Below, one piece after another: positions 15,190 to 16,981 of a DNA stretch of 64,000 nt; the stretch's first letter is position 1; each line of letters begins with the position of its first letter. Both the position numbers and the translations under genes were made by a program. Origin of the DNA: Bdellovibrio sp. SKB1291214 (GTDB lineage: Bacteria > Bdellovibrionota > Bdellovibrionia > Bdellovibrionales > Bdellovibrionaceae). The notes under the pieces were generated by a model, which did not search any database, was not told where the DNA came from, and saw only the letters and a list, made by a program, of their open reading frames with translations. The stretch lies in contig NZ_CP106855.1 of assembly GCF_002209355.2 (NCBI RefSeq), positions 3,286,001 to 3,350,000 on the forward strand, given 5' to 3'.

Positions 15190-16107
15190 TTAAAGGGCGC
15201 GGATCTCAAAGCAGACGTGGATTTTTTTATCGTGGAAATCCTGAGGAATGCTTTCCTCGGTGATGTCGCGAACCTTGTACTGCTCTTTAATTGCAGGTGA
15301 GAGGTGAAACTTGCGTTTATTGTTCGAGAAATACAAAACTCCGCCCGGCTCCAGCATGCTCATGCACTCGTTTACAAGCAGTTCCTGATCGCGTTCGACA
15401 TCAAAACTATCTGTCATTTTTTTAGAGTTCGAAAAAGTCGGAGGATCCAAGAAAATCACGTCGAAAGCTGGCTTCCCTTGGTTTCGGTCCAACCACTCCA
15501 GCACATTTGCGTTGATGAAGCTGTGTTGGGCCATAGGAATATTATTAAGCTCGAAATTTTCTTGAGCCCAAGCCAAATAGGTTTGAGACATGTCAACGGA
15601 GGTCGTTTTAGCCCCGGCCAAAGCCGCAAATACGCTAACGGAGCCGGTGTAGCAGAACAGATTCAGAAATTTTTTGCCGTTCACTGTCTTGTAGATCTTT
15701 TGGCGCATGGGACGGTGATCTAAGAACAAACCTGTATCAAGATAATCATAAAGGTTCACCTTGAAAGTCGCTTGGGATTCTTTGACAGTGAAGGTTTGAT
15801 CCTTTTGATCTAGTTTTTCATATTGCTTTAAACCTTCTTGGCGTTCGCGTTTTTTAATCACGATTTTCGATTCATCCACTTTGAACAAAGCCTGCAAGGC
15901 CTCGATGACGTGCGGTAGATGGTTCTTTTCGATATCCCGACTGTCGCCCTTATCATAGATCAAGAAGTGATCGCCATAGATGTCCACGATGAACGGATAT
16001 TCTGGGATATCACGGTCGTAAAGACGGTAAGCTTGAATCCCAGCACGCTCGGCCCAAGATTTAAGTTTCTTATAGTTCTTTTCAAGACGATTTTTGATCA
16101 TTTGCAT
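15190..16107 (-). CDS. rlmK: RlmK-like 23S rRNA methyltransferase, stand-alone
   Basis: 305 residues equivalent to the C-terminal half of E. coli RlmKL, which makes m7G2069 in 23S rRNA. The start NRLEKNYKKLKSWAERAG and YRLYDRDIPEYPF is the hallmark of that half. The methyltransferase core shows FLNLFCYTGSVSVFAALAGA (motif I) and VIFLDPPTFSNSKKM (motif IV). The RlmL half with THUMP domain is absent next to it, so the two activities are not fused here. It is divergent from the deaminase gene with 46 bp between starts, so the two may share a regulatory region. Confidence 0.88.
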   Translation of the reverse strand: MQMIKNRLEKNYKKLKSWAERAGIQAYRLYDRDIPEYPFIVDIYGDHFLIYDKGDSRDIEKNHLPHVIEALQALFKVDESKIVIKKRERQEGLKQYEKLDQKDQTFTVKESQATFKVNLYDYLDTGLFLDHRPMRQKIYKTVNGKKFLNLFCYTGSVSVFAALAGAKTTSVDMSQTYLAWAQENFELNNIPMAQHSFINANVLEWLDRNQGKPAFDVIFLDPPTFSNSKKMTDSFDVERDQELLVNECMSMLEPGGVLYFSNNKRKFHLSPAIKEQYKVRDITEESIPQDFHDKKIHVCFEIRAL

Positions 16108-16153
16108 AGGGCCTTTTTAGACAAAAATGCTCTGTTATGGTACCAATTCTTGA

Positions 16154-16981
16154 ATGAGCCCCGAAAAAAGGTCCCAACATTTAGCATTTTTACTCTATAA
16201 GAAAGACTTTGACGTCGCCTTTGTCGAGTTTAAGGGAAAAGTTTATTTTTCCCACTTTGCTAAAGGCTCATCTGCTCCCTCATCGTCGATTGTGAAACTG
16301 ATGCAGGGCCTTTTCGATCGGCACAAAGATCACAGCTTTTTCATATTGCGCCAAAGAATTTTCACCACGGCTCCATTATCGGAAATGTGTCAGGGGATGG
16401 TTAAGGTCGTCGCCAAACGTGCAACAGGGGATATCGTTCCAAAGAGGGATTCTGAATTTTCAGAACACCTGGAATTTATAGAAGTCGACTTGGCGGAAAA
16501 CTTCGTCGTGGCAGTGATGCATCTGAATCCTGAAAATCAAATGCAGATACAGAAAGTACAGCTGTGGCTGGAAAGTTTAAAACCGCTGAACGACTTGGAT
16601 CATTTGCGGTTTGCTCATAATTTATCAAAACAAGTCCCCCGTGGCGAAGTCCTGCATGATTATGATCGCGAGATTGCGGCACTGCTTATTGCTCCGGATG
16701 GAAAAGTTCTCAGTTACGGAGTTAATTCCAACTCCATCAATAAAACCCTGCATGCGGAAGTAAATTTGGTGCAAAGATATTTTCGAGAAAACGGACGAAA
16801 AATTCCCCCAGGGTCCGTTTTGTATAGCACTCACAAACCCTGCAAAATGTGCGCAGGAATGATTTACGAGTGGTCTGAAAATCCAGATCAGTTAAAAGTG
16901 TATTACTCTGTGGAAGAATCCGGTGGTATGTCCAAGCAGACTGTTTTAGATCGCTACGGGCTTAATCAGCGAATTAACTAA
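16154..16981 (+). CDS. Bd3614-like nucleic acid/nucleotide deaminase
   Basis: 275 residues with a ~160-residue N-terminal globular region and a C-terminal cytidine-deaminase fold. Catalytic zinc motifs are H200-A-E202 (in [12 protein letters not shown]) and P-C230-K-M-C233 (in [15 protein letters not shown]). The layout matches the Bd3614-deaminase family, described from Bdellovibrio and proposed to edit RNA because of its association with a 23S rRNA methylase; the same association is seen here. Substrate and base are not known. The gene overlaps the convergent kinase by 8 bp. A role in free nucleoside salvage is less likely because of the large N-terminal domain. Confidence 0.85.

Follow-up and report, generated by a model that had tools for sequence, protein, structure and literature searches.

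The Bd3614-type deaminase encoded beside rlmK in Bdellovibrio sp. SKB1291214 is predicted, from profile comparison and structure modelling, to carry two deaminase folds in one chain, a degenerate N-terminal copy followed by an active C-terminal domain. Our preferred explanation, held with moderate confidence, is that this dead plus live enzyme is vertically inherited and that its adjacency to rlmK reflects promoter geometry rather than a shared rRNA substrate. The protein is an ortholog within a known but unstudied family (PF14439/PF14442), from which its architecture does not differ; what is added here is the re-reading of the family architecture as a tandem of inactive and active deaminases, and the identification of a unique upstream element. 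An earlier sequence-only reading had proposed that RlmK and the deaminase form an RNA-editing pair, a claim which the distribution of the two genes does not bear out.

Locus and domain architecture of the deaminase

The window (a stretch of 64,000 nucleotides from the SKB1291214 genome, which is a single contig of 3,681,188 bp) contains the two genes in a head-to-head arrangement with 46 bp between their start codons, both ORFs lying where the sequence-only reading had placed them (Table 1). On its other side rlmK adjoins a single 432-aa ORF (window positions 13795–15093) in which SpeD and SpeE (AdoMet decarboxylase and spermidine synthase) are fused, and which also adjoins rlmK in several deaminase-less genera. 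A further zinc deaminase-family match (PF00383, 56 bits) is present at window positions 59504–59797 within a 406-aa frame and is probably RibD.

Table 1. Positions of the genes, domains, motifs and upstream element in the window
Feature	Position	Strand	Basis
rlmK, stand-alone RlmK-type 23S rRNA methyltransferase, 305 aa	15190..16107	-	NF008748 and PDB matches
Divergent intergenic region, 46 bp	16108..16153	.	Starts similarly close in five other genera
TTTAGACA-N12-TATGGTA, probable promoter/operator of the deaminase	16116..16142	+	Single exact genome match; 15 invariant positions
Bd3614-family deaminase, 275 aa, predicted tandem of pseudo- and active deaminase	16154..16981	+	PF14439, 151.8 bits; AlphaFold2 pLDDT 95.7, pTM 0.92
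N-terminal domain, residues 1–~100, predicted degenerate deaminase fold (PF14442 region)	16154..16453	+	hhalign of N- against C-domain; VIA-align
Putative dead counterpart of HAE: S44-S45-I46 (family consensus S/T-A-V)	16283..16291	+	hhalign register and column counts
Putative dead counterpart of PCxxC: L75-S76-E-M-C79	16376..16390	+	hhalign register and column counts
C-terminal catalytic deaminase domain, residues 140–275	16571..16978	+	VIA-align to TadA and NE0047 guanine deaminase
H200-A201-E202, zinc ligand and catalytic Glu	16751..16759	+	Sequence; H, A, E invariant in 40/40 aligned (rows picked for HAE/PCxxC)
P229-C230-K-M-C233, zinc ligands	16838..16852	+	Sequence; P, C, C invariant in 40/40 aligned (rows picked for HAE/PCxxC)

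The description of the neighbour as RlmK-like proved correct. It aligns with E. coli RlmKL over the C-terminal half of that protein, scoring 423 bits against the RlmKL model NF008748 at model positions 396–702 of 704 (the whole-protein cut-off of 466 applies to the fused RlmKL protein), such that the RlmK half of the model is covered end to end, and it matches PDB 3v97/3v8v with an E-value of 3e-78. The gene equals the RlmK half of the E. coli protein; the arrangement differs in that the two halves are encoded far apart in SKB1291214, RlmL by a 374-aa gene of its own. A PADLOC assignment of RlmK to mad2 was set aside, the match being far weaker than that to RlmKL. Matches to rlmK in G077:C85, G079:C205 and G174:C1 each contain one in-frame TGA.

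Membership of the deaminase in the Bd3614 family is confirmed by its PF14439 (Bd3614-deam) score, for which the Pfam cut-off is 38.5, and both zinc motifs are read in its sequence, as had been noted. Beyond the aligned rows of Table 1, the H, E, C and C residues are also kept in five further full-length sequences whose variant P or A had excluded them from the alignment. A domain does precede the catalytic part; however, rather than the ~160 residues first ascribed to it, the AlphaFold2 model of the whole protein, built from the 40-sequence alignment, has a folded domain of ~100 residues and a linker, with the catalytic domain starting at about residue 141.

The N-terminus matches PF14442 (Bd3614_N) at 21.7–24.4 bits (24.4 as a separate domain), just under the cut-off of 25; the same Pfam model is matched by 20/40 family N-domains at E-values up to 0.01, and the window N-domain aligns with these end to end. 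Residues 1–110 of the structure model run helix, strand, strand, helix, strand, helix, strand, which is the deaminase order. Alignment of the N-domain profile with the C-domain profile of the same proteins using hhalign gave a match in register with a probability of 90–91% and a score of 40.2, compared with 19.7 for the best of 200 column shuffles and 22.3 for the best of 19 unrelated families; this register sets PCKMCAGMI opposite LSEMCQGMV, and HAE opposite S44-S45-I46.

When the N-domain was modelled alone, the 50 entries listed by VIA-align were essentially only deaminase superfamily members, with Z-scores of 6.3–7.9 over ~90 of 118 residues, a Z of at most 7.9 being within reach of unrelated models. 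Foldseek placed TadA and yeast ADAT2/3 among the top matches, with weak E-values (best 0.06). Against the TadA profile the N-domain scored only 22, not above the best unrelated control, so the sequence case rests on the likeness of the domain to its own C-terminal partner, the fold evidence being separate. From the profile match and the consistency of the fold list, the N-domain is predicted to be a degenerate deaminase copy. Of the active-site residues, the His that binds zinc, the first Cys and the catalytic Glu are missing from it, and no aligned sequence has an H at position 44 or an E at position 46. L49, R66 and the A87-K88-R89 patch are nearly invariant, which argues that the dead N-domain is under selection.

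Profile and model evidence support a tandem inactive–active deaminase with two folds in one chain. The predicted arrangement resembles those of RNA- and DNA-editing deaminases: ADAT2/ADAT3, in which an inactive deaminase domain is joined to an active one, and APOBEC3G, in which an inactive domain and then an active domain occur in the same order in one chain. Neither system has a close sequence relation to the Bdellovibrio deaminase, and the full-length match to APOBEC3G is poor (TM 0.27, rmsd 18.6), the packing probably being different.

The catalytic domain and its candidate substrates

The catalytic domain is TadA-like both in fold, with a VIA-align Z-score of 15.0 and an rmsd of 2.2 Å over 122 residues (model residues 141–275), and in its HAE/PCxxC zinc site. 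It differs from TadA in having only ~20% sequence identity and in the dead copy fused ahead of it, and the genome encodes a separate TadA; the deaminase scores 15.9 bits against the TadA equivalog model, below the cut-off of 150. NE0047 guanine deaminase ties with TadA (Z 15.0, model residues 111–275), so the fold is undecided between a polymer and a free-base substrate. The net charge of the family is slightly positive (median +2), which is no strong sign of nucleic-acid binding.

In the mechanism we propose, the intact TadA-like C-terminal site would hydrolytically deaminate a base, with the substrate held by both domains. The N-terminal dead copy would most likely complete a dimer-like unit and help to hold the substrate, by analogy with ADAT3/ADAT2 and APOBEC3G. 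As inactive partner domains serve to hold polynucleotides in both of these systems, RNA, as a polynucleotide, is favoured as the first choice of substrate, a leaning that falls short of even confidence.

Our second choice, put forward tentatively, is a small free substrate, either a nucleobase or a nucleoside, with guanine, cytosine or a modified base as candidates, deaminated in the salvage of prey-derived nucleotides; the dead domain would then serve structurally as half of a dimer, as does the dead half of E. coli cytidine deaminase. The best PDB sequence match of the deaminase is B. subtilis guanine deaminase (E-value 5.5e-5), and the tie of NE0047 with TadA points the same way, as does the occurrence of the family in Bdellovibrionota but in 0/398 sampled Pseudomonadota genomes, as judged by PF14439 at the threshold of our phylum survey. 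In one lineage, too, the gene adjoins gcvT-gcvH and has ORFs resembling purB and folD in its vicinity; such metabolic neighbours, however, change between lineages, and a conserved dead N-domain exceeds what a small substrate would need.

A tRNA deaminase supplementing TadA would be consistent with the TadA-like catalytic domain, and ADAT works with an inactive partner subunit, ADAT3, beside the active ADAT2. We nonetheless consider this role unlikely. The genome has its own TadA, which scores 174.8 bits and is above the family cut-off, and comparison of position 34 identified tRNA-Arg(ACG) as the sole A34 tRNA among those read, leaving no need for another wobble deaminase. This TadA is a 309-aa protein (L210:1483-2412; G000 near 1.445 Mb) that by sequence bears a Nudix-like extension at its C-terminus.

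A profile scan of genome contigs with the family alignment was dominated by TadA and gave one clear family member among 80 loci, because the only conserved peptide is PC[KRA]MCA[GA]xI. Bd3614 is named in no paper found by our literature search, the 2011 deaminase survey lying beyond the range of that search, and the main text of a predation proteome paper (PMC12546842) does not mention the deaminase.

The rlmK link and the divergent promoter region

Our survey covered 369 genomes of the phylum, with rlmK counted at E-values up to 1e-50; PF14439 was found in 64 of them and rlmK in 170. The divergent link to rlmK had been described as conserved, which is the case for Bdellovibrionaceae: all 30 deaminase genomes of this family have rlmK, and in 28, from seven genera, the two genes are adjacent and divergent, with rlmK located elsewhere in the genome in two genera (G166 and G172). 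Outside Bdellovibrionaceae the link disappears; rlmK is adjacent in 0/34 deaminase genomes, and a strong rlmK is present only in G214. The suggested gene-order survey of relatives thus gives co-occurrence within Bdellovibrionaceae but chance level across the phylum (31/64 genomes vs 46% expected; Fisher p = 0.68, to be taken as a guide since genomes are not independent). Most rlmK-bearing genomes have no deaminase. The rlmK link is a lineage-specific habit of Bdellovibrionaceae.

Within Bdellovibrio the speDE-rlmK-deaminase-kinase block is syntenic as a whole, so adjacency there says little; the deaminase is single-copy, in a stable syntenic place, in nearly every genome of the genus searched (in G148 the gene is cut by the contig end). 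The G133 deaminase, from the same genus, is 62% identical to that in the window, with the same two-domain build and the same divergent rlmK. G133 is probably B. bacteriovorus HD100, and hence the carrier of Bd3614 itself. Its gene pair is probably the basis of the published rlmK association, in which case the window holds an ortholog of that pair and provides no independent support. G134 (locus L060), a Bdellovibrio without the deaminase, still has both neighbours, with rlmK next to the kinase gene that borders the pair in other genomes, and so offers a natural knockout for comparative work.

In five further genera (G132, G165, G168, G169 and G195) the pair is kept with different flanking genes. 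Its retention despite changed flanks suggests a constraint, and a pair that outlasts the neighbouring gene order leaves room for a functional tie. In other lineages the deaminase is found next to genes with no relation to RNA, namely those for PEPCK, GcvH, a DNA-alkylation repair protein, DprA and an asparaginase domain, and also next to those for leucyl aminopeptidase, cytochrome c552 and others, and no partner is repeated between the families sampled outside Bdellovibrionaceae. In family f22 (L057, L090, L091, L095 and L098), where the deaminases have diverged, the gene occurs with gcvT, gcvH and gcvP, near purB- and folD-like ORFs, and several loci have the order gcvT-gcvH-deaminase. In both genomes of one f7 genus, the deaminase is followed by a short protein with an asparaginase N-terminal domain (166–194 aa; L049:5756-6340 and L050:5189-5689).

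The intergenic region contains TTTAGACA-N12-TATGGTA, which has one exact match in the 3.68-Mb genome and 0 matches in 100 shuffles of the window; when two mismatches are allowed, it has no more genomic matches than a reversed-pattern control. Its 15 specified positions are invariant, and its spacer variable, in all 24 loci that hold the element (Bdellovibrio and G164). Such invariance combined with a single genomic copy is unusual for a plain promoter. As the distance from the element to the deaminase ATG is nearly fixed and that to rlmK variable, we read it as a probable promoter or operator of the deaminase. A standard sigma-70 scan of the region did not pick up the element, and RNA structure in the region is not marked (z -1.2).

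Wherever rlmK and the deaminase are paired their starts are very close, from overlapping to about 50 bp apart, which implies shared promoter space that would by itself resist separation of the genes. Strict conservation of the element is confined to two genera, Bdellovibrio among them, so a single shared promoter does not account for every case. It is probably the tight divergent promoter region, rather than joint chemistry, that keeps the genes together; we infer that this head-to-head region has been retained in Bdellovibrionaceae and would confer co-regulation at most.

The proposal that the two enzymes share a target region in 23S rRNA, or act on ribosome-bound RNA, has in its favour the adjacency in seven genera, five of them with otherwise different flanks, and a catalytic domain of the RNA-editing kind. 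Against it, strong rlmK is missing from 33/34 deaminase genomes outside Bdellovibrionaceae, co-occurrence in the phylum is at chance, and G134 keeps rlmK without the deaminase. In addition, 0/2859 gapless 23S columns distinguish deaminase-bearing from deaminase-less genomes, a comparison sensitive only to sites where deaminase-less genomes encode the edited base, and blind to positions that are A or C everywhere, such that the absence of a separating column is a weak negative for a fixed edit. To our knowledge, no rRNA deamination is known in bacteria. An rRNA-editing pair is thus unlikely, and we regard this reading as very doubtful. An anti-phage or conflict role is highly improbable: the wider deaminase superfamily is rich in conflict enzymes and presence in the phylum is patchy, but the deaminase has no PADLOC family matches, its single-copy, syntenically stable state in Bdellovibrio argues against such a role, and no mobile or immunity gene was noticed adjoining it.

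Implications for the Bd3614 family

The rlmK link being lineage-specific, an rRNA connection would point experimenters to the wrong RNA first, whereas the dead-plus-active architecture gives a structural reason to consider polynucleotide substrates. A broader possibility, which we consider rather improbable, is that predatory bacteria of this phylum have their own single-chain dead-plus-live editing deaminase, changing bases in cellular or prey-derived RNA and controlled by a dedicated, strictly conserved promoter element. Such an enzyme would parallel ADAT2/3 and the APOBEC3 enzymes while being independent of them. Should a substrate be identified, the Bd3614 deaminase would give bacteria a single-chain equivalent of ADAT2/3 and might serve as a scaffold for base editors.
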